Source: Palleronia salina (GTDB lineage: Bacteria; Pseudomonadota; Alphaproteobacteria; Rhodobacterales; Rhodobacteraceae). Taken from it: 64,000 nucleotides of DNA. The translations under genes and the position numbers were made by a program. A model generated the notes under the pieces. It had not been told where the DNA came from. It saw only the letters and a list, made by a program, of their open reading frames with translations, and did no database searches. Below, in pieces: positions 7,681 through 47,447 of the stretch. The number at the start of each line of letters is the position of its first letter. Position 1 is the stretch's first letter. The stretch covers positions 1 through 64,000 of the forward strand of contig NZ_FQZA01000007.1 of the NCBI RefSeq assembly GCF_900141995.1, given 5' to 3'.

Positions 7681-10335
7681 ATGAAAGACGGCCAATCGGA
7701 TATCGACCCCGTAGAATCCCAGGAATGGCAGGAGGCGATCGAGGACGTCATCGCCCGCGACGGCCCCGACCGTGCGCATTTCCTTCTGGACAAGGCCGTG
7801 TCACAGGCCCGCGCCCACGGCGCGCAGCTGCCCTTCTCGTCGACCACGCCCTACCAGAACACCATTCCCGCCGACGAGCTGCTGGAAATCCCCGGCGACG
7901 CCGAGATGGAAAAGCGCATCCGCTCCATCAACCGCTGGAACGCCATGGCGACCGTGGTGCGCCGCAACAAGGAATCGTCGGAATACGGCGGTCACATCGC
8001 CAGCTTCGCGTCCTCGGCGGCCATGTACGACATCGGCCTGAACCACTTCTGGCGCGCCAAGTCGTCCATCCACGGCGGGGATCTCGTCTTCTTCCAGGGC
8101 CACATCATCCCCGGCATCTATGCCCGGTCCTTCATGGAAGGCCGCATCTCGGAAGACGAGCTGATCAATTTCCGCTCGGAGGTCGCGGGCAACGGGCTGT
8201 CGTCCTACCCGCACCCCTGGCTGATGCCGGATTACTGGCAGTTCCCCACCGTCTCCATGGGGCTTGGCCCGCTCATGGCGATCTACCAGGCGCGGTTCAT
8301 GAAATACATGCACAACCGCGGCCTGATCGACGCTGCGGACCGCAAGGTCTGGTGCTTCCTCGGCGACGGCGAGATGGACGAACCCGAAAGCCTTGGCGCC
8401 ATCAACCTCGCCGCGCGCGAGAAGCTGGACAACCTGATCTTCGTCATCAACTGCAACCTGCAGCGGCTCGACGGCCCGGTGCGCGGCAACCACAAGATCG
8501 TGCAGGAGCTCGAGGGCAGTTTCCGCGGCGCCGGCTGGGAGGTCATCAAGACGCTCTGGGGCCGTGGCTGGGACGATCTGCTGGAGCGTGACACCTCGGG
8601 CAAGCTGCGCCAGCTCATGGACGAGACGCTGGACGGCGACTACCAGACCTTCCGCTCGAAGGATGGCGCCTATATCCGCGAGCACTTCTTCGGCAAGTAT
8701 CCCGAGACGGCGGAACTGGTCGAGGACTGGACCGACGAACAGATCTGGAACCTGCGCCGCGGCGGGCACGACCCGCAGAAGGTCTATACCGCCTACAAGC
8801 GCGCGACCGAGGTCAAGGACCGCCCCACCTGCCTGCTGATCAAGACGGTCAAGGGCTATGGCATGGGCAAGGCCGGCGAGGGGCAGAACACCACCCACCA
8901 GCAGAAGAAGCTGGACGAGGAACAGCTTCTGGCCTTCCGCGACCGCTTCAAGATCGACCTGAGCGACGAGGACGCCAAGAAGGCGCCGTTCATCACGCTC
9001 AACAACGCGCAGAAGGCCTACCTGGCCGACCGCCGCAAGGACCTGGGCGGTCCGTTTCCCGCGCGCTTCACCGACAGCCCGTCGCTCGAGGTGCCGTCGC
9101 TCGACGCCTTCTCGCGCGAGCTGAAGGACAGCGGTGACCGCGAATTCAGCTCGACCATGGCCTTCGTGCGCGTGCTGACCACGCTGCTGCGCGACAAGAA
9201 GATCGGCGAACGCGTCGTGCCCATCGTGCCCGACGAATCCCGCACCTTCGGGATGGAGGGTCTGTTCCGCTCGGTCGGCATCTACAACCCGCTGGGGCAG
9301 AACTACACGCCCGAGGACCGGGACCAGATGTCCTACTACAAGGAGGCTCTGGAAGGTCAGGTGCTCCAGGAAGGCATCAACGAAGCAGGTGCCATGGCCG
9401 ACTGGATCGCGGCGGCCACGTCGTATTCGACCCACGGCGTGCCGATGATCCCGTTCTACATCTACTACTCGATGTTCGGCTTCCAGCGGATCGGCGACCT
9501 GGCCTGGGCCGCCGGCGACAGCCGCGCGCGCGGCTTCATGCTGGGCGGCACGGCCGGGCGGACCACCCTGAACGGCGAGGGTCTTCAGCACGAGGACGGG
9601 CACAGCCACATCCTGAGCTCGACCGTGCCGAACTGCATCAGCTACGACCCCACCTTCAGCTACGAGGTGGCGACCATCGTGCAGTCGGGCCTGAAGCGGA
9701 TGTTCGCGGACCAGGAGGATGTCTACTTCTACATCACCCTGATGAACGAGAACTATCACCACCCCGAGATGCCCATGGGCAGCGAGGAGGGGATCCTCAA
9801 GGGGCTCTACCGCTTCCGCAAGACCGACAAGCCCGGCAAGAAGCACGTGAACCTGATGGGGTCGGGCACGATCCTGGTGCAGGTGATCAAGGCGGCCGAG
9901 ATGCTGAAGGAGGATTTCGGCGTAACCAGCGACATCTGGTCGGCGACGTCCTTCACCGAGCTGGCCCGCGACGGGCAGGACTGCGCCCGCCACAACCGCC
10001 TGAACCCCTTCGCCGAGCCCAAGGTGCCGTATGTCACCCAGACGCTCACCAACGCCAAAGGACCGATCGTGGCGGCGACCGACTACATGAAGAACTTCGC
10101 GGAACAGATCCGCGGCTTCGTCGAGCAGCCCTACACGGTGCTGGGCACCGACGGGTTCGGCCGGTCCGACAGCCGCGTGAACCTGCGCCGCTTCTTCGAG
10201 GTCGACGCGAACCACATCGCGGCGGCGGCCATGCACGAGCTGTTCAAGCAGGGCAGGGTCACCAAGGCCGACATGGAAAAAGCGTTGAAGAAATACGAGA
10301 TCGACGGCGGCAAGCCCAACCCGCGGCTGGCCTGA
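7681..10335 (+). CDS. aceE: Pyruvate dehydrogenase E1 component, homodimeric type
   Basis: 884 aa thiamine-diphosphate enzyme that decarboxylates pyruvate and reductively acetylates the E2 lipoyl group. The ThDP/magnesium motif runs from GDGEMDEPESLGA (about residue 229) to NCNLQ (about 257). The full-length single-chain form (transketolase-like, as in E. coli AceE) differs from the E1-alpha/beta pair common in alphaproteobacteria. GAAGGGATGAG precedes the ATG. It is the first gene of a three-gene operon with aceF and lpd; 31 bases separate it from aceF. Confidence 0.96.
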   Translation: MKDGQSDIDPVESQEWQEAIEDVIARDGPDRAHFLLDKAVSQARAHGAQLPFSSTTPYQNTIPADELLEIPGDAEMEKRIRSINRWNAMATVVRRNKESSEYGGHIASFASSAAMYDIGLNHFWRAKSSIHGGDLVFFQGHIIPGIYARSFMEGRISEDELINFRSEVAGNGLSSYPHPWLMPDYWQFPTVSMGLGPLMAIYQARFMKYMHNRGLIDAADRKVWCFLGDGEMDEPESLGAINLAAREKLDNLIFVINCNLQRLDGPVRGNHKIVQELEGSFRGAGWEVIKTLWGRGWDDLLERDTSGKLRQLMDETLDGDYQTFRSKDGAYIREHFFGKYPETAELVEDWTDEQIWNLRRGGHDPQKVYTAYKRATEVKDRPTCLLIKTVKGYGMGKAGEGQNTTHQQKKLDEEQLLAFRDRFKIDLSDEDAKKAPFITLNNAQKAYLADRRKDLGGPFPARFTDSPSLEVPSLDAFSRELKDSGDREFSSTMAFVRVLTTLLRDKKIGERVVPIVPDESRTFGMEGLFRSVGIYNPLGQNYTPEDRDQMSYYKEALEGQVLQEGINEAGAMADWIAAATSYSTHGVPMIPFYIYYSMFGFQRIGDLAWAAGDSRARGFMLGGTAGRTTLNGEGLQHEDGHSHILSSTVPNCISYDPTFSYEVATIVQSGLKRMFADQEDVYFYITLMNENYHHPEMPMGSEEGILKGLYRFRKTDKPGKKHVNLMGSGTILVQVIKAAEMLKEDFGVTSDIWSATSFTELARDGQDCARHNRLNPFAEPKVPYVTQTLTNAKGPIVAATDYMKNFAEQIRGFVEQPYTVLGTDGFGRSDSRVNLRRFFEVDANHIAAAAMHELFKQGRVTKADMEKALKKYEIDGGKPNPRLA

Positions 10336-10366
10336 AGTCGACCGATAACGAGGAGACAGAAGAACA

Positions 10367-11704
10367 ATGGCAACAGAAGTTAAAGTTCCCGATATCGGCG
10401 ATTTCGATGACGTTCCCGTCGTGGCCGTTCTGGTCAGCGTCGGCGATACCGTCGCGAAGGAAGACCCGCTGATCGAGCTGGAGTCCGACAAGGCCACCAT
10501 GGAAGTGCCCAGCTCGCACGCGGGCAAGGTCGTCGAGATGAAGCTCAGCGAGGGCGACAGCGCCTCCGAGGGCACCGTGATCCTTCTGCTCGAGGAAGAG
10601 GGCGCCGGCGGCGGTGACGATTCCGGCGGCGGCGACGACAAGGCCGAGGCCGACAGCGGCGGCAAGGACAAGCCCGCCGAGGCCTCCGGTGGCGGCCAGG
10701 AGGGCTATGGCGACGGCGACCAGAAGGGTCAGAGCGCCGCGCCCGCGTCGAACGCCCAGTCGTCCAACACCGTGGTCGACACCGGAAGCTCGAAATTCCA
10801 CGCCTCGCCCAGCGTGCGCGCCTTCGCCCGCCGGGTGGACGTGGACCTGCGGCAGGTGAACGGGTCCGGCCGCAAGGGCCGCATCCTGCGCGAGGATGTC
10901 GAGAAGGCGCTGAAATCCCAGGCCGCGCCGTCGGGCGCCAGCGCCGGGCAGGCCGCGCAGGGGGGCATGGGCATCCCGCCGATCCCGGCGCAGGACTTCT
11001 CGAAGTTCGGCGAGGTCGAGAATGTCGAGATGACCCGGATCCAGAAGATCTCGGGCCCCGCGCTGCACCGGTCGTGGCTGAACATCCCGCATGTCACCCA
11101 CAACGAGGACGCGGATATCTCGGTCACCGACGATTACCGCAAGGAGCTGGACACCCAGGCCAAGAACGAGGGCTACCGCGTCACGCTGCTGTCCTTCGTG
11201 GTGAAGGCCAGCGTCAGCGCGCTGAAGACGCACTGGCAGTTCAACAGCTCGCTCCACCCCGATGGCGACAAGCTGATCCGCAAGCACTACTACAACATCG
11301 GTTTCGCCGCGGACACGCCGAACGGGCTGATGGTGCCGGTCATCAAGGACGCCGACAAGAAGGGCATCGTCGAGATCTCGAAAGAGCTCGGCAGCCTCAG
11401 CGCCGCCGCGCGCGACGGCAAGCTGAAGGGCGACGACATGAAGGGTGCGACCTTCACCATCTCGTCCCTGGGCGGCATCGGCGGCACCAGCTTCACCCCC
11501 ATCGTCAACGCGCCCGAGGTCGCGATCCTGGGCCTGACCAAGTACTGGATGAAGCCCATCTGGGACGGCGAGAAGTTCGTGCCGCAGAAGACCCTGCCCA
11601 TGAGCCTCAGCTACGACCACCGCGCCATCGACGGGGCGCTGGCCGCCAAGTTCGCGGCGCGCCTGGCCTATCTCATGGCGGACCCCCGCCGGTTGATGCT
11701 GTAA
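10367..11704 (+). CDS. aceF: Dihydrolipoyllysine acetyltransferase (PDH E2)
   Basis: 445 aa. One N-terminal lipoyl domain (residues 1-77, lipoyl Lys42 in ESDKATME) is followed by a Gly/Asp/Lys/Ser-rich linker to about residue 140. Then comes a peripheral-subunit-binding domain (about 145-182) and the catalytic domain from about 220, with active-site motif SYDHRAIDGA near residue 415. It transfers the acetyl group to CoA. It has a single lipoyl domain, where E. coli has three; the adjacent E3 carries an additional one. It lies between aceE and lpd in one operon. Confidence 0.96.
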   Translation: MATEVKVPDIGDFDDVPVVAVLVSVGDTVAKEDPLIELESDKATMEVPSSHAGKVVEMKLSEGDSASEGTVILLLEEEGAGGGDDSGGGDDKAEADSGGKDKPAEASGGGQEGYGDGDQKGQSAAPASNAQSSNTVVDTGSSKFHASPSVRAFARRVDVDLRQVNGSGRKGRILREDVEKALKSQAAPSGASAGQAAQGGMGIPPIPAQDFSKFGEVENVEMTRIQKISGPALHRSWLNIPHVTHNEDADISVTDDYRKELDTQAKNEGYRVTLLSFVVKASVSALKTHWQFNSSLHPDGDKLIRKHYYNIGFAADTPNGLMVPVIKDADKKGIVEISKELGSLSAAARDGKLKGDDMKGATFTISSLGGIGGTSFTPIVNAPEVAILGLTKYWMKPIWDGEKFVPQKTLPMSLSYDHRAIDGALAAKFAARLAYLMADPRRLML

Positions 11705-11719
11705 AGAGGGAAGCGAGAC

Positions 11720-13483
11720 ATGGCTGATATCAAACTTCCCGACATCGGGGATTTCACCGATGTGCCCATCGTTGCCGTGCTGGTCAGCGTTGGCGACAAG
11801 GTCGAGGCCGAGGACCCGCTGATCGAGCTGGAATCCGACAAGGCCACGATGGAGGTGCCGAGCCCGCAGGCCGGCGTCGTGAAAGAGATCAAGGTCAAGG
11901 AAGGCGACACCGTTTCCGAAGGCGACCTGATCATGGTGTTCGAGGGCGCAGACGAAGGCTCCGGCGGTGGCGGGGGCGGCGACGACAAGCCCGCCGAGAA
12001 GGCCGAGACGCCCAAGCAGGACGACACGCCCGCGCCCAAGGCCGCGTCGGGCACCAAGGCCGGATCGGGCGACATGCATGCCGACCTGGTCGTGCTGGGC
12101 TCGGGGCCGGGCGGCTACACGGCCGCCTTCCGCGCCGCGGACCTGGGCAAGTCGGTCATCCTGATCGAGCGTTATTCCACCATCGGCGGCGTCTGCCTGA
12201 ACGTGGGCTGCATCCCGTCGAAGGCCCTGCTGCATGCGGCCAAGGTCATCACCGAGACCGAAGAGATGTCGTCGCACGGCCTGGCCTTCAAGCGCCCCGA
12301 GATCGAGCTGGACAACCTGCGGTCCTGGAAGGACGGCGTGGTCAAGCAGCTGACCGGCGGCCTTGCGGGGCTGTCGAAGCAGCGCAAGGTGCAGATCGTG
12401 ACCGGCTGGGGCGAATTCTCGGGCGCGAACTCGATCAGCGTGTCGACCGATGATGGCCAGAAGACCGTGACCTTCGACCAGTGCATCATCGCCGTGGGCT
12501 CCACCCCGGTCGAGCTGCCGTTCATTCCCCACGACGACGAACGCATCGTCGACAGCACCGGCGCGCTGGAGCTGTCCAACATTCCCAAGAAGATGTGCGT
12601 CCTTGGCGGCGGCATCATCGGGTTCGAGATGGCGACCGTCTACGAGGCCCTGGGCTCCGAGGTGACCGTGGTCGAGATGATGGACCAGATCCTGCCCGGC
12701 GCCGACAAGGACATCGTGAAGCCCCTGTCCAAGCGCATGGAGAAGCGGCTGAAATCCATCAAGCTGAAGACCAAGGTCACGGACGTGAAGGCCCAGAAGA
12801 ACGGGCTGAAGGTCACCTTCGAGGACGAGAAGGGCGAGTCGAGCAGCGAGATGTTCGACAAGATGCTGGTCGCAGTGGGCCGTCGCCCGCTGGGCGCGTC
12901 CTGCGCCGCCGACAAGGCCGGCGTGAAGGTCAGCGACCGCGGCTTCATCAACGTGGACCACCAGCAGCGCACCAACGTGGATCATATCTTCGCCATCGGC
13001 GACGTGGTCGGCCAGCCCATGCTGGCGCACAAGGCGGTGCACGAGGGCAAGGTCGCGGCCGAGGTCGTCTGCGGCGAGAAACGCGCCTTCGACGCCCGCA
13101 TCATCCCCTCGGTGGCCTATACCGACCCCGAGGTGGCGTGGTGCGGCGTGACCGAGGAGCAGGCCAAGAAGGAAGGCCGCAAGATCCACAAGGGCGTGTT
13201 CCCCTGGGCCGCGTCCGGCCGGGCGCTGGCCAACGGCCGGTCCGAGGGGATGACCAAGCTGATCTTCGACCCCGAGGATGACCGGGTGATCGGCGGCGCC
13301 ATCGTCGGCACCAACGCGGGCGACCTGATCTCCGAGGTGGCGCTGGCCATCGAGATGGGGTCCGACGCGGTGGACTTGGGCCACACCATCCACCCGCACC
13401 CGACACTGTCCGAGACGGTGAACTTCGCGGCCGAGATGTTCGAGGGCACCATCACGGACCTCATGCCGCCGAAGAAGAAATGA
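11720..13483 (+). CDS. lpdA: Dihydrolipoyl dehydrogenase with N-terminal lipoyl domain (PDH E3)
   Basis: 587 aa. Residues 1-77 form a lipoyl domain (Lys41 in ESDKATME) closely resembling that of the neighbouring E2. A Gly/Ala/Pro/Lys linker runs to about residue 117, followed by a complete flavoprotein disulfide reductase. This has FAD loop GSGPGG (127-132), redox pair Cys159/Cys164 in CLNVGC, NAD loop LGGGIIGFE and C-terminal HPHPTLSE with the catalytic His. It reoxidises dihydrolipoyl groups with NAD+. The fused form is known from some beta- and gammaproteobacteria. Last gene of the operon, followed by a terminator. Confidence 0.95.
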
Positions 13484-13491
13484 GACTCGAG

Positions 13492-13520
13492 ACGGCCGCG
13501 GATCCCTTCCGCGGCCGTTT
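13492..13520 (+). terminator. Terminator of the pyruvate dehydrogenase operon
   Basis: A 10-bp perfect stem ACGGCCGCGG (13492-13501) / CCGCGGCCGT (13509-13518) with a 7-base loop and a short T run, 9 bases after the lpd stop. Confidence 0.75.
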
Positions 13521-13593
13521 CGCTTCGGGTGTCCGTGTTGCCCGTTCAGCCCGGATGTTCCTGAAAACAAAGGGTTTCGAAATAGCGTGCCGA

Positions 13594-19052: not shown

Positions 19053-21341
19053 TCAGGCGCGGCGCAGCAGGTCGCGGTAGATCGCGATCAGCGCGTCCGC
19101 CTCGGATTGCAGGGTGAAGTGCGCGCGGACATGGGTGCGGGCGGCGGCGCCCAGCTGCGCCAGCCGGTCGCGGTCGGACAGGGCCGTGCGCACGGCGTCG
19201 GCGATGACCGACGCCTCCCCGGGCGGCACCAGCGCGCCAGTCTGGCCGTCCACCACCAGTTCGTCGAAGGCGCCGACCGTGGTCGCGATCACCGGCACGC
19301 CGCAGGCCATGGCCTCGAGCGGGGTCAGGCCGAAGCCTTCCCACCGCTGGGGCGCGACGTAGAGGTCGAGCGCGGCGTAATGGTCGGCGATCTCGTGCAC
19401 CGGAACTTCGGGCGGGAAGAGGATGCGCCCGGACAGGCCGGCGGCCTCCACGCGCGCCTTCAGGTCCTGCAGGAAGGCGCGGTCCTTCTCGGTCGCGCGG
19501 CCCATGACCAGCGCGGTGGCGTCGGGATGCGCGGGCAGGACCGCGATCATCGCGTCGACGAACAGGTCCGTGCCCTTGGAGCTTCGGATGCGCCCGAAGC
19601 AGCCGATCAGCAGTCCGTCCGGCAGGCCCAGCCGCTGCCGCAGCGCGGTGCGGTCCGGGGCGGGGGTGAAGGCGTCCGTGTCGATCCCGTGGCGGATGAC
19701 GCTGGCGGGCCGGTCGAGATAGGCGGCGGTCTTGTCCGACGTCGCCACCACGGCGTCCATGCGCGCGATCAGCCACTTGGTCAGCCCGGTATGTCGCCGC
19801 TGCGAGGCCGACGTGAACAGCAACGCCATCCGCTTGCGCAGCAGGTGGCGCAGGGCGAGGCCGCCGATCATCTCGACATTGCGGCGCGCATGCCAGACAC
19901 GGCGCACCCGCCGGGGCAGAAGCGGCAACCGCCAGAGCGGGATCTGCGGAACGTGGTCGGGCAGGGCGGGGGCGGTGGCGCGGATGGCGATCTGGCGGGC
20001 CTGAAGCGGCACCAGTCGCACCACCGTGGCGGTCACGCCCGAGAGCCGGCGCTTGAAATTCGGGGCCAGGACGACCGGCGGCGCGGTCTCGGACGGGCGG
20101 GCCGCCAGCCCGCGAAGCTCGTCCGCCACCGCGTCGAGGTCCGGGGCCTGCAATTCGGCGGCACCGGCGCGGTCGCCGTCGAGGAAGGGCGCGATCGCGG
20201 CGGGCAACTGCGCCGGATCGTCTATCACGGTCGCGGCGCCCTGATCGACCAGGGCCGCGTAGATGTCGGCGGCGTTGGTGATGTGCGGCCCCGTCACCGC
20301 GTGGCAGCCGAGCTGCGCGGGCTCCACCGGGTTGTGGCCGCCCATGTCGGTGAACGAGCCGCCGACGAAGGCCGCGGGGGCGAGCGAGAACCACAGCCCG
20401 AGCTCGCCCAGCGTATCGGCCAGGTAGATCTGGCACCGCGCGTCTGGCAGCGCGGCGGTCGAGCGTTGGGTGACCCAGAACCCCCGGTCCTGCAGCTCGG
20501 CCGCGATGGCGTCCCCACGCTCGGGGTGGCGGGGGACGAGGATCAGCAGCAGGTCGGGGCGGTCGTTCAGGAGGGTGCGATGCGCCTCGGCGGCAATGAC
20601 CTCTTCCCCCGGGTGGGTCGAGGCCGCGACCCAGACGGGCCGACCCGCCAGCGCGCCCTGCATCTCGTCCAGCCGGGCGGTGTCCACGGGCAGCGGATCG
20701 GCGGCCGTCTTCAACGTGCCGATCACGCGCAGCCGGTCGTCCCGCGCACCGAGCTCCCGCAGGCCCCGCGCCGTCCGCTCATCTTGGGCGAGGATCAGGC
20801 CGATCCGGTCCAGCATGTGGCGGGCCAGGGGGCGCAGCTTCTGCCAGCGGCGCAGCGACCGGCCCGATAGGCGCGCGCCGACCAGCGCGACGGGAATGGC
20901 GCGGTCGTGCGCTTCGGTGATCTGCCGGGGCCAGAGCTCGGATTCCGTGAGCACCAGCAGGTCCGGGCGCCAGTGGTCCAGGAACCGCCGCACGGCGCGC
21001 CCGGTGTCGAGCGGCGCGAAGCGGTGGACCAGGTCGGGCGCGCGGGCGGCCACCATCCGGGCCGACGTGGCGGTGGTGGTCGTCAGGACCACGGTGGCGT
21101 CCCGCGACAGGCGCTGGGCGAGGGGGAGGATCGACATCGCCTCGCCCACCGACACGGCGTGGACCCAGATGACACGTCCCGCCGGGCGGTTACCCGACTG
21201 CAATCCCCGGCGTTCGGCCAACCGATCCCCGGGCACGCCTTGCGAAGTCAGCTTGTCGGCATCCCGGCGATACGCGGCGGGCGCGATCCCCGCCGCCAGC
21301 ACCCGGTACAGTGCGTAGAGCGCCCGGCCGGGCAGGCTCAT
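19053..21341 (-). CDS. waaA: WaaA (Kdo transferase) - LpcC-like glycosyltransferase fusion
   Basis: 762 aa, two enzymes in one frame. Residues 1 to about 415 are a complete GT30 Kdo transferase: [13 protein letters not shown], the ASTHPGEEV phosphate region, RHPERG and the long C-terminal [17 protein letters not shown]. It adds Kdo to lipid A precursor. From about residue 423 a full GT4 glycosyltransferase follows, opening with [17 protein letters not shown] and carrying the EX7E motif EGFGLTPLE near 668-676. This start is typical of LpcC-type LPS-core mannosyltransferases. No stop or restart lies at the joint (around base 20075). The ATG overlaps the moaA stop (ATGA). A stop lost by sequencing error is the alternative to a true fusion. 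Confidence 0.88.
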
Positions 21342-22342
21342 CCGCCCGTGTGGCTCATGTGCCGGGTCATCTGGCCATCCGCGCGCTGGCGCGAATAGTC
21401 GAAATCATGGCCCTTCGGCTTCAGCGAGATCGCGGCGCGGATCGCCTGTTCCAGCACCCGGTCGTCGTCGGAGGCGCGCAGCGGGGCGCGCAGGTCGGCC
21501 ATGTCTTCCTGCCCGAGGCACATGTAGAGCTCGCCCGTGCAGGTCAGCCGCACGCGGTTGCAGCTTTCGCAGAAATTATGCGTCAGCGGCGTGATGAAGC
21601 CGATATCCTGGCCCGTCTCCTCGATCTTGGCGTAGCGTGCCGGGCCGCCGGTGCGCTTGGGGATATCGGACAGGGTATAGCGCTCGGCCAGTTGGCCGCG
21701 CAGGTCCTTCAGCGACCAGTACTGGCCGACGCGGTCCTCGTTGCCCAAATCGCCCATGGGCATGACCTCGATGAAGGTCAGGTCCATGCCGCGATCGGCG
21801 CACCACTCGGTCAGCGCGAACAATTCGTCCTCGTTGAAGCCCTTGAGCGCGACGGTGTTGATCTTGACCTTCAGCCCGGCGGCCAGCGCGGCGTCGATCC
21901 CCTTCAGCACCTGCGGCAGGCGGCCCCAGCGGGTCACGCGGGCGAACTTGTCCTCGTCCAGCGTGTCGAGCGAGACGTTCACCCGGCGCACGCCGGCGGC
22001 ATACAGGTCCTCGGCGAAGCGATGCAGCTGCGATCCGTTGGTGGTGAGCGTCAGCTCGTGCAGGTCGCCGCTGTCCAGGTGCCGGGACATGGAGCGGAAG
22101 AAGGTCATGATATCGCGGCGCACCAAGGGCTCGCCGCCGGTGATGCGCAGCTTCTTTACCCCCAGCCGGACGAAGGTCGAACACATGCGGTCGAGCTCTT
22201 CGAGCGTCAGCAATTCCTTCTTGGGCAGGAACTGCATGTTCTCGGCCATGCAATAGACGCAGCGAAAATCGCAGCGGTCGGTGACGGAGACGCGCAGGTA
22301 CGAGATCGCGCGCTGGAACGGGTCGATGAGGGGTGCAGTCAT
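21338..22342 (-). CDS. moaA: GTP 3',8-cyclase MoaA
   Basis: 334 aa radical-SAM enzyme that starts molybdenum-cofactor synthesis by converting GTP to 3',8-cH2GTP. The SAM 4Fe-4S cluster cysteines are Cys24, Cys28 and Cys31 (CDFRCVYC). The second cluster is in [11 protein letters not shown]. The C-terminal Gly-Gly is present (HTGG). I start at the ATG at 22342. A TTGCGG-17-TAGCTT promoter ends exactly 7 bases before it and there is no ribosome binding site, suggesting a leaderless mRNA. It is coupled to the LPS gene waaA. Confidence 0.95.
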
Positions 22343-22349
22343 GGTGGGG

Positions 22350-22378
22350 AAGCTAAGGGTCGCGCAGTCGGCCCGCAA
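22350..22378 (-). promoter_or_regulatory. Candidate leaderless promoter of moaA
   Basis: Minus strand TTGCGG (22378-22373), a 17-base spacer and TAGCTT (22355-22350). The -10 ends 7 bases before the moaA ATG, so transcription would start at or next to the A of ATG. Confidence 0.5.
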
Positions 22379-22392
22379 GCCTCCTTTGGTCG

Positions 22393-22421
22393 TTGGCAAG
22401 GCGCGCCGCAGGACCTAGCTT
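22393..22421 (+). promoter_or_regulatory. Candidate leaderless promoter of the lipoprotein gene
   Basis: TTGGCA (22393-22398), a 17-base spacer and TAGCTT (22416-22421); the ATG at 22429 follows after 7 bases. It is the divergent counterpart of the moaA promoter, with an identical -10 hexamer. Confidence 0.5.
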
Positions 22422-44839: not shown

Positions 44840-45247
44840 ATGAAAATTACGAAATCCCTTTTCCTTGCCGCTGCGCTTGCCCTGGGCGGGCAGGCCGCGA
44901 CCGCCCAGCAGGTTCCGCTCGAGCAGAACCAGGTGGTGAGGGATGGCTTCTATGCCATCGGCCTCGCGGACGAGATCCGCAAGAACTGCCCGCAGATTTC
45001 CCCCCGGCTGATCCGGGCCTACTCGGCCCTGAAGGACCTCGAGCAATACGCCCGCGAACAGGGCTACACCGAGGCCGACGTGAAGGCGCTGGAAGACAAC
45101 GACGCCGCCAAGGACGCCCTGCGCGCCGAGGTCAACGCCGAGCTGCAGGCCCGCGGCGCCGTTCCAGGCCAGACCTCGGGCTACTGCAAGATCGGGCGCG
45201 AGGAAATCGCGCGCGGCACCCCGGCGGGACGCCTGCTCAGGGATTGA
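44840..45247 (+). CDS. DUF5333-like exported protein
   Basis: 135 aa with a signal peptide ([23 protein letters not shown]). The helical mature domain has two conserved-looking Cys ([10 protein letters not shown] and [10 protein letters not shown]). It resembles DUF5333 proteins seen beside nuoG in Rhodobacteraceae. Function is unknown. GGAGACGACC precedes the ATG. A gap of about 180 bases with no clear gene separates it from nuoG. Confidence 0.7.
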
Positions 45248-45428
45248 TCCCGGCCGCCGCGCCGCGGCCAATCGGCGGGCGCGGTGCGGAAAATGCGCGC
45301 GACAAATGGGATCATCGCGTGATTGCGCGGTTTTCCCTGCCGCCGATGTCCTCTACATTGCGCCCCGACGGGCGGCCGTGCATCCGGCGCGGCCCACGCC
45401 CCCTTGCGACCCTTTGGAGACGAGCGGC

Positions 45429-47447
45429 ATGAGCGATCTTCGCAAAATCATCATCGACGGGCGAGAGATCGAGGTCGATCCGGCGATGACCCTGATCCAG
45501 GCCTGCGAACAGGCCGGGATCGAGATCCCGCGGTTCTGCTACCACGAACGCCTGTCCATCGCCGGCAACTGCCGCATGTGCCTGGTCGAGGTCGTGGGCG
45601 GCCCGCCCAAGCCCGCCGCCAGCTGCGCCATGCAGGTGCGAGACCTGCGCCCCGGCCCCGAAGGCGCGCCGCCGCAGGTCAAGACGAACAGCCCCATGGT
45701 CAAGAAGGCCCGCGAAGGGGTGATGGAGTTCCTGCTCATCAACCACCCGCTGGACTGCCCGATCTGCGACCAGGGCGGGGAATGCGACCTTCAGGACCAG
45801 GCCATGGCCTACGGCGTCGACTTCTCGCGCTTCCGCGAACCGAAGCGGTCGGTCACCAACATGGACCTGGGCCCGCTGGTCGGCACCCACATGACGCGCT
45901 GCATCTCGTGCACCCGCTGCGTGCGCTTCATCACCGAGGTCGCCGGCATGCCCGAGCTGGGCCAGACCGGCCGGGGCGAGGATGCCGAGATCACCAGCTA
46001 CCTGGGCCAGACCCTCGACTCCGAGATGCAGGGCAACATCGTGGACTTGTGCCCGGTGGGCGCGCTGACCTCCAAGCCCTATGCCTTCACCGCCCGCCCG
46101 TGGGAGCTGCAGAAGACCGAGACCATCGACGTGATGGATGCGCTCGGCTCGAACATCCGCGTGGACACCAAGGGGCGCGAAGTCATGCGCATCCTGCCGC
46201 GCAACAATGACGGCATCAACGAGGAGTGGCTCGCCGACCGGTCGCGCTATGTGTGGGACGGCCTGCGCCGCCAACGGCTCGACAAGCCCTATATCCGCGA
46301 GAACGGCAAGCTGCGCCCGGCCACCTGGCCCGAGGCCCTGTCGGCCGCGGCCGAGGCCATGAAGGGCAAGAAGATCGCCGGGCTCGTCGGGGACCTTGCG
46401 CCGACCGAGGTGATCCACGCGCTGAAGCAACTGGTCGAAGGGCAGGGCGGCAAGGTCGAGTGTCGTCTCGACGGCGCCAAGCTGCCCGAGGGCAACCGCG
46501 CCGCCTATGCCGGCACCGCCGCGATCGAGGATATCGACCACGCGAAGGCCGTCATGCTGATCGGCACCAACCCCCGGCTCGAAGCGCCGGTGCTGAACAG
46601 CCGGATCCGCAAGGCCTGGCTGCGCGGCGCCGATGTGGGCCTGGTGGGCGAGGCCGTGGACCTGACCTATTCCTACGACCACCTGGGCGACGGTCCGGGC
46701 ACGCTGGACGACCTGCTGTCGCGCGACCATTCCGACGTGCGCGAGAAGCCGTCGGTCATCATCGTGGGCCAGGCCGCCCTGCGCCGCGACGACGGTGCGG
46801 CCATCCTGGCCGCCGCGCAGGCGCTGGCCGAGGCGACGGGCTCGGGCCTGCTGATCCTGCACACCGCCGCGTCGCGCGTCGGGGCGATGGACGTGGGTGC
46901 GGTCACCGAGGGCGGCCTGGACGCCGCCATGGACGGGGCCGAGGTGATTTTCTCGCTGGGCGCCGACGAGGTCGAGATCGCCCAGGGGCCCACCGTGATC
47001 TACCAGGGCAGTCATGGCGACCGGGGCGCGCACCGGGCGGACATCATCCTGCCCGCCGCCGCCTGGACCGAGGAGCAGGGCCTGTTCGTCAACACCGAGG
47101 GCCGCCCGCAGCTGGCGCTGCGCGCCAACTTCGCCCCCGGTGAAGCCAAGGAAAACTGGGCCATCCTGCGCGCCCTGTCGGCCGAGATGGGCGCGACGCT
47201 GCCCTTCGATTCCATCGCCGAGCTGCGGCGCGGCATGGTCGACGCGGTGCCGCATCTGGGCCTGCTGGACGAGCTGGCCGAGAACGAGGGGGAATCCCTT
47301 GCCCGCGGCGACGTGGCCAAGACGCCCTTCGGGCAGGCGCTTCAGGACCACTACCTGGTGAACCCGATCGCCCGGGCGAGCCAGCTCATGGCCGAGCTCA
47401 GCGCGGGCGCCAAGGCGCGCGCGGGTGCCGCGCTTGCGGCCGAGTGA
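45429..47447 (+). CDS. nuoG: NADH-quinone oxidoreductase subunit G
   Basis: 672 aa 75-kDa-type subunit. The N-terminal 2Fe-2S ferredoxin domain has [21 protein letters not shown]. The His-Cys3 cluster motif is [19 protein letters not shown]. The following 4Fe-4S site is [14 protein letters not shown] with a distal Cys in CPVGAL. A molybdopterin-like fold without cofactor follows. The length is close to mitochondrial and alphaproteobacterial homologues. A weak extra promoter (TACATT around 45353) may precede it. Confidence 0.97.

Follow-up and report, generated by a model that had tools for sequence, protein, structure and literature searches.

The gene waaA-lpcC, at positions 19053–21341 on the minus strand of the window (the whole 64,000-nucleotide stretch of Palleronia salina DNA that was analysed), is a genuine fusion of a Kdo transferase gene with the gene of an LpcC-type glycosyltransferase, conserved as an undivided frame across species with selection on both halves. 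The two enzymes ordinarily act in succession while the sugar foundation of the bacterial outer coat is assembled. The frame runs from an ATG start through 762 codons to its stop and contains no internal stops. In the original prediction, which gave no strand, this uninterrupted 762-residue frame was described as WaaA joined to an LpcC-like transferase in a single ORF, and the seven assemblies that carry it, the trees, the spacing at the joint, the selection pattern and the structure model agree with that description. The same two-domain architecture, which the prediction had proposed looking for in related genomes, occurs in seven of the 14 genomes of the genus, that of the window included (G000, G008, G004, G012, G007, G011 and G005), and the other six fused proteins are 62–97% identical to the window protein. 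We consider it probable that the gene encodes a real two-domain glycosyltransferase, made as one protein, which would place Kdo on lipid IVA and then, likely, mannose on that Kdo, and that the two genes were fused once. Directly upstream of the fused gene, with an overlap of 4 nt, lies the open reading frame of moaA (21338–22399, minus strand).

Domain architecture and the GT4 half

Every part of the fused gene described below lies on the minus strand. Residues 1–415 (20097–21341) form the GT30 Kdo transferase (WaaA) domain, which is matched by Pfam PF04413 over residues 40–213 (6.9e-56; 189–190.4 bits against a gathering score of 23.9). Five NCBIfam WaaA models match residues 7–418 with values of 6.5e-108 to 3.5e-70, all scoring under their own cut-offs (the best reach 361.3 of 617 and 338.4 of 438 bits); these models may be tuned to other lineages. 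The GT4 domain of the LpcC/LpsB/WadC kind comprises residues 423–762 (19056–20075), with PF00534 (group-1 glycosyltransferase) on residues 564–736 (4.6e-36). The two Pfam matches fall within the two predicted parts of the frame (about 1–415 and 423–762), and the predicted LpcC-like opening of 12 residues lies at residues 425–436. The linker region between the domains (residues 388–422; 20076–20180) is poorly conserved yet nearly constant in length in the alignment of the seven fused proteins, and a helix is modelled at residues 402–413. An AlphaFold model of the whole protein (47 rows) has a mean pLDDT of 93.8, and each half can be matched along its length to GT-B enzymes of solved structure; at a pTM of 0.73, the mutual placement of the halves is not fixed by the model. 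As a separate observation, two very long frames lie opposite real genes in the window, one of 587 codons (19107–20870, plus strand) and one of 1103 codons (10259–13570, minus strand); both are probably products of chance at a GC content of ∼65–70%.

The GT4 half displays both the GT-B fold and the motif EGFGLTPLE (Glu668 to Glu676; 19314–19340), the EX7E motif of retaining GT4 enzymes, which is invariant in all seven fused proteins, as are its two glutamates. Many GT4 structures match this half at Z scores over 30, among them the C-terminal domain of Francisella LpcC (5i45; Z 30.4, r.m.s.d. 1.4–1.5 over 194 residues, 39–40% identity). A GT4 tree of 71 rows, built without an outgroup and rooted at the midpoint, splits into groups of 52 and 19 rows at a branch with SH-aLRT 100. 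The fused GT4 domains fall in the group of 52 together with stand-alone Rhodobacteraceae enzymes and with greA-linked proteins of Sinorhizobium meliloti and Rhizobium leguminosarum; the records of the latter name neither gene, and we take them to be lpsB and lpcC, respectively. These two greA-linked proteins share 52–53% identity with the fused domain, as well as the EX7E motif. They and Brucella WadC differ from it in being stand-alone enzymes, whereas in the fused protein the WaaA linker replaces the free N-terminus.

The donor of a GT4 enzyme is hard to predict from sequence, and the sister species of the fused clade carry a GT4 of the distant group in the same position. Both points speak for a different reading, in which the GT4 domain works with a different sugar or acceptor and its attachment to WaaA serves only co-expression or placement at the membrane. 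We judge this to be unlikely, as the domain groups with the LpcC/LpsB proteins, and WadC, an orthologue of R. leguminosarum LpcC, is described in two reports as a mannosyltransferase acting on Kdo I (PMC3349745, PMC6171495). By this comparison, the GT4 half most likely adds mannose to Kdo I after Kdo transfer. The GDP-mannose enzyme model TIGR01479 is matched in all 14 genomes of the genus and its cut-off is passed in 12; the exceptions are G000 and G008, in which the matches cover positions 1–359 and 1–358 only.

The joint and the Kdo transferase half

Between the GP..N motif of WaaA and the LpcC opening lie 216–219 nt in all seven fused genes and 236–515 nt in 16 distinct unfused loci. Seventeen further loci that the motif pattern failed to match were dropped from this measurement, and seven entries that duplicate unfused loci (L035–L037, L119, L121, L159 and L160) were left uncounted. 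Since the fused spacer is shorter than the unfused ones, the fusion is not a mere loss of a stop codon. Estimates of dN/dS for three pairs are 0.24–0.39 in the WaaA half, 0.26–0.73 in the linker and 0.16–0.21 in the LpcC half, and are rough because dS is ∼0.8–1 in two of the pairs.

The linker is thus the fastest-evolving segment (0.26, 0.43 and 0.73), and this, together with its poor conservation, would suit a reading in which the frame is single but yields free LpcC as well, through internal initiation or cleavage within the linker, so that the join has no function. Start-type codons do occur near the joint in single species (GTG at −2 in G011, TTG at −7 in G007 and ATG at −13 in G004), and a GTG at +15 is present in five of the seven. 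However, none of these positions is common to all seven: between −45 and +60 codons around the LpcC opening no in-frame ATG, GTG or TTG is shared, and the only shared Met position is internal, at +64/+65. An internal start at the joint was rejected on this ground. The linker, moreover, has kept its length and contains a modelled helix, and we regard the production of free LpcC as improbable.

The WaaA half has a complete GT30 fold. Aquifex aeolicus WaaA (KdtA; 2xci) is the first Foldseek match (1.4e-19) and aligns with residues 29–415 of the model (Z 32.7, r.m.s.d. 5.1 over 351 residues). The two proteins share the N-terminal helix, which is seen in the structure model at residues 5–33 within the WaaA domain and is a putative membrane anchor, and the GGHN motif. 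Glu67 (codon 21141–21143), in an H-x-x-S-x-G-E motif, pairs with the Glu of the Aquifex SIGE motif, which is presumably the catalytic base, and is invariant in all seven fused proteins. Unlike 2xci, the fused protein runs without a stop into a second glycosyltransferase, and its WaaA tail and spacer are shortened.

A second GT30-like gene lies just upstream of lpxK in all 14 genomes (L155:8304–9479, on contig 7 of G000; lpxK loci L164–L177). Because waaA-lpxK is a gene pair often found, according to PMC3087551, this arrangement could suggest that the lpxK-adjacent gene encodes the real Kdo transferase and that the WaaA half of the fused protein is inactive. We consider this very improbable, since the lpxK-adjacent protein lacks both the catalytic-column Glu and the GGHN motif in 14 of 14 genomes and, in G000, scores 28.6 bits against PF04413 compared with 190.4 for the fused protein. 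A second WaaA performing the Kdo step was rejected on the missing Glu, although Asp occupies the catalytic column in four of the 14, so that some residual function of the lpxK-adjacent protein is conceivable. By the same residue comparison, the cell probably has no Kdo transferase other than the fused protein. The second PF04413 match is found in 13 of the 14 genomes, G011 being the exception, and is below the cut-off in two of the 13 (G004 and G009). The lpxK-adjacent gene is in its own right a conserved and apparently non-catalytic relative of waaA, which may have another role in lipid A assembly. Matches to kdsB are present in all 14 genomes, none of which passes the TIGR00466 cut-off (127.6 of 155.2 bits in G000). 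Two kdsB-like matches of equal score and extent on contig 5 of G007 (45221–45916 and 88644–89339) perhaps mark a duplicated segment.

Taken as a two-domain enzyme, the fused protein would be held at the inner membrane, at its GT30 domain, by the first helix. The GT30 domain would transfer Kdo from CMP-Kdo to lipid IVA, and the GT4 domain would then attach the following sugar; by comparison with WadC and LpcC this is most likely mannose, taken from GDP-mannose and added at O-5 of the inner Kdo. Both domains are predicted to be active, and the membrane anchor, the sugar and its linkage are likewise predictions. The physical tie may make the two steps one unit, with the Kdo-lipid A acceptor passing directly between the domains, as the original prediction had suggested.

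Distribution and origin within the genus

Each of the seven fused genomes yields a single match at E<=1e-40, so that no second copy of either half is present at that level. One further locus (L044) is from the same assembly as G012 and has the same frame, and is thus no additional witness. Among the seven unfused genomes, six have adjacent genes with a stop between them. In G001, G002 and G006, waaA is followed after one TGA by a GT4 gene in the same frame, with 45–54 nt between the stop and the point that corresponds to residue 424; in G003, G009 and G013, the GT4 gene follows the waaA stop in another frame, 47–73 nt on. In the seventh, G010, the two genes are on different contigs. The GT4 of all seven belongs to the other group of the tree (hereafter type 2) and is 36–40% identical to the GT4 domain of the window protein. 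Close relatives with two genes and an intervening stop, which the original prediction had named as evidence against a fusion, therefore do exist, in half of the genus; yet they form a sister clade with a different GT4, so that they show the locus in another state and are no sign that the fused frame is erroneous. A sequencing or assembly error that removed a stop or shifted the frame between two ordinary genes, a reading to which the three same-frame loci with their single TGA might lend colour, has a negligible probability, as the undivided frame recurs in seven assemblies at identities down to 62%, with a spacing of 216–219 nt in every one, and a mistake shared by related species is very unlikely; the seven assemblies rule out a read error or misassembly as its source.

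The seven fused genomes lie on one side of a single branch in the GT4 tree (SH-aLRT 95–96), in the WaaA tree (SH-aLRT 99) and in a tree of MoaA, LpxK and the lpxK-adjacent protein combined (bootstrap 100, SH-aLRT 99). In a tree of LpxK only, they are not one group (three changes, on weak branches), and become one when MoaA and the lpxK-adjacent protein are added. The moaA match ends within ∼60 nt of the waaA match in all 14 genomes. With the fused seven together in the trees and moaA upstream throughout, the simplest explanation is that the fusion happened once, in an ancestor common to half of the genus. This event would have joined two neighbouring genes by loss of the waaA stop together with some of the spacer.

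Related fusions and the slot after waaA

Beyond the genus, waaA and lpcC are adjacent, separate genes of the same order and families in other Rhodobacteraceae. In Pseudodonghicola and Phaeobacter sp. HF9A the intervening stop is in the same frame, whereas in Lutimaribacter, Sulfitobacter sabulilitoris, two Rubellimicrobium species and Pseudooceanicola atlanticus the second gene is in a different frame.

WaaA is also joined in one frame to a GT4 of type 2, in Allgaiera indica and G357 (loci L042:541–2910, L125 and L181); G1101 gives a 789-residue frame identical to that of A. indica. This second fusion has the same domain order as the window gene, in one open frame of 789 codons. It differs in that its GT4 half is of the other group, its WaaA half branches elsewhere and its spacer is not shortened: the spacings of 234 and 252 nt in A. 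indica and G357 are no shorter than those of unfused loci. The WaaA halves of these two branch with Acidimangrovimonas, in which the genes are separate and the stop is ∼20 nt from the place matching residue 424. The different GT4 group and the different position on the WaaA tree indicate that the Allgaiera fusion is independent.

In wider surveys, full-length undivided frames were found in two of 394 genomes at the family level (G000 and G357; E<=1e-110), in one of 385 at the class level (G000; E<=1e-100) and in three of 398 at the phylum level (G000, G357 and G1101; E<=1e-75); these counts come from two scored candidates per genome and high E-value limits, so that a divergent fusion could be missed. 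Nineteen suspiciously long frames were opened, among more in the survey lists, and none joins WaaA to a GT4. In seven of them (G327, G061, G080, G193, G280, G301 and G348) a WaaA-LpcC join was not found. In the other 12 (G059, G1103, G1022, G928, G447, G1010, G735, G1106, G446, G020, G049 and G432) only 39 to 80 codons follow the WaaA match, which leaves no C-terminal partner in any of the 12. In three of these (L187, L189 and L191, of G059, G1022 and G447) the WaaA match is preceded by ∼320 to 810 codons of open frame; Pfam shows PF04413 alone in them, and the long upstream frames are probably due to chance at high GC. In G280, an LpcC-type GT4 (L152:48–1697, minus strand) continues in frame into a GT29 sialyltransferase-like stretch (PF00777, 1.1e-09).

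On a WaaA tree of 76 rows, an uneven sample picked for resemblance to the window protein, the two types of neighbouring GT4 alternate repeatedly, with eight changes per label. Well-supported branches force at least five of these changes for the LpcC label and at least six for type 2, and the type 2 label clusters no more strongly than in 94 of 500 shuffles. This repeated alternation gives the slot after waaA the look of a swappable cassette. A tentative reading, to which we attach limited credence, is that two distant GT4 types have been repeatedly interchanged in this slot, each presumably determining which sugar is placed first on Kdo, and have been welded to WaaA at least twice. The welded enzyme would then act as a committed unit and cap Kdo upon its addition, such that free Kdo-lipid IVA would not build up and the geometry of the protein would decide whether a second Kdo or the branch sugar follows.

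Both enzyme families are well known; the new part is the joined architecture and its repeated origin. Multi-module polysaccharide enzymes such as KpsC and WbdA likewise carry more than one glycosyltransferase module in one chain, but they serve capsule or O-antigen synthesis and do not combine WaaA with a core sugar transferase. In the accessible portion of the open-licence literature, neither the window type nor the Allgaiera type of WaaA fusion was found to be described. No word starting with 'fusion' appears in the main text of a 2010 survey of Kdo2-lipid A genes (PMC3087551). A search for a related core structure, directed at Paracoccus, gave no mention of that genus among the matches listed.

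Inner-core assembly is usually drawn as a relay along the membrane, in which Kdo-lipid intermediates go from one separate enzyme to the next. With natural WaaA fusions that arose at least twice, the physical coupling of successive core steps can be tested directly, and a single protein becomes available for structural work on the hand-over of the lipid. As the cell probably has no Kdo transferase besides the fused form, the core step would be tied in these organisms to a step that is usually essential.
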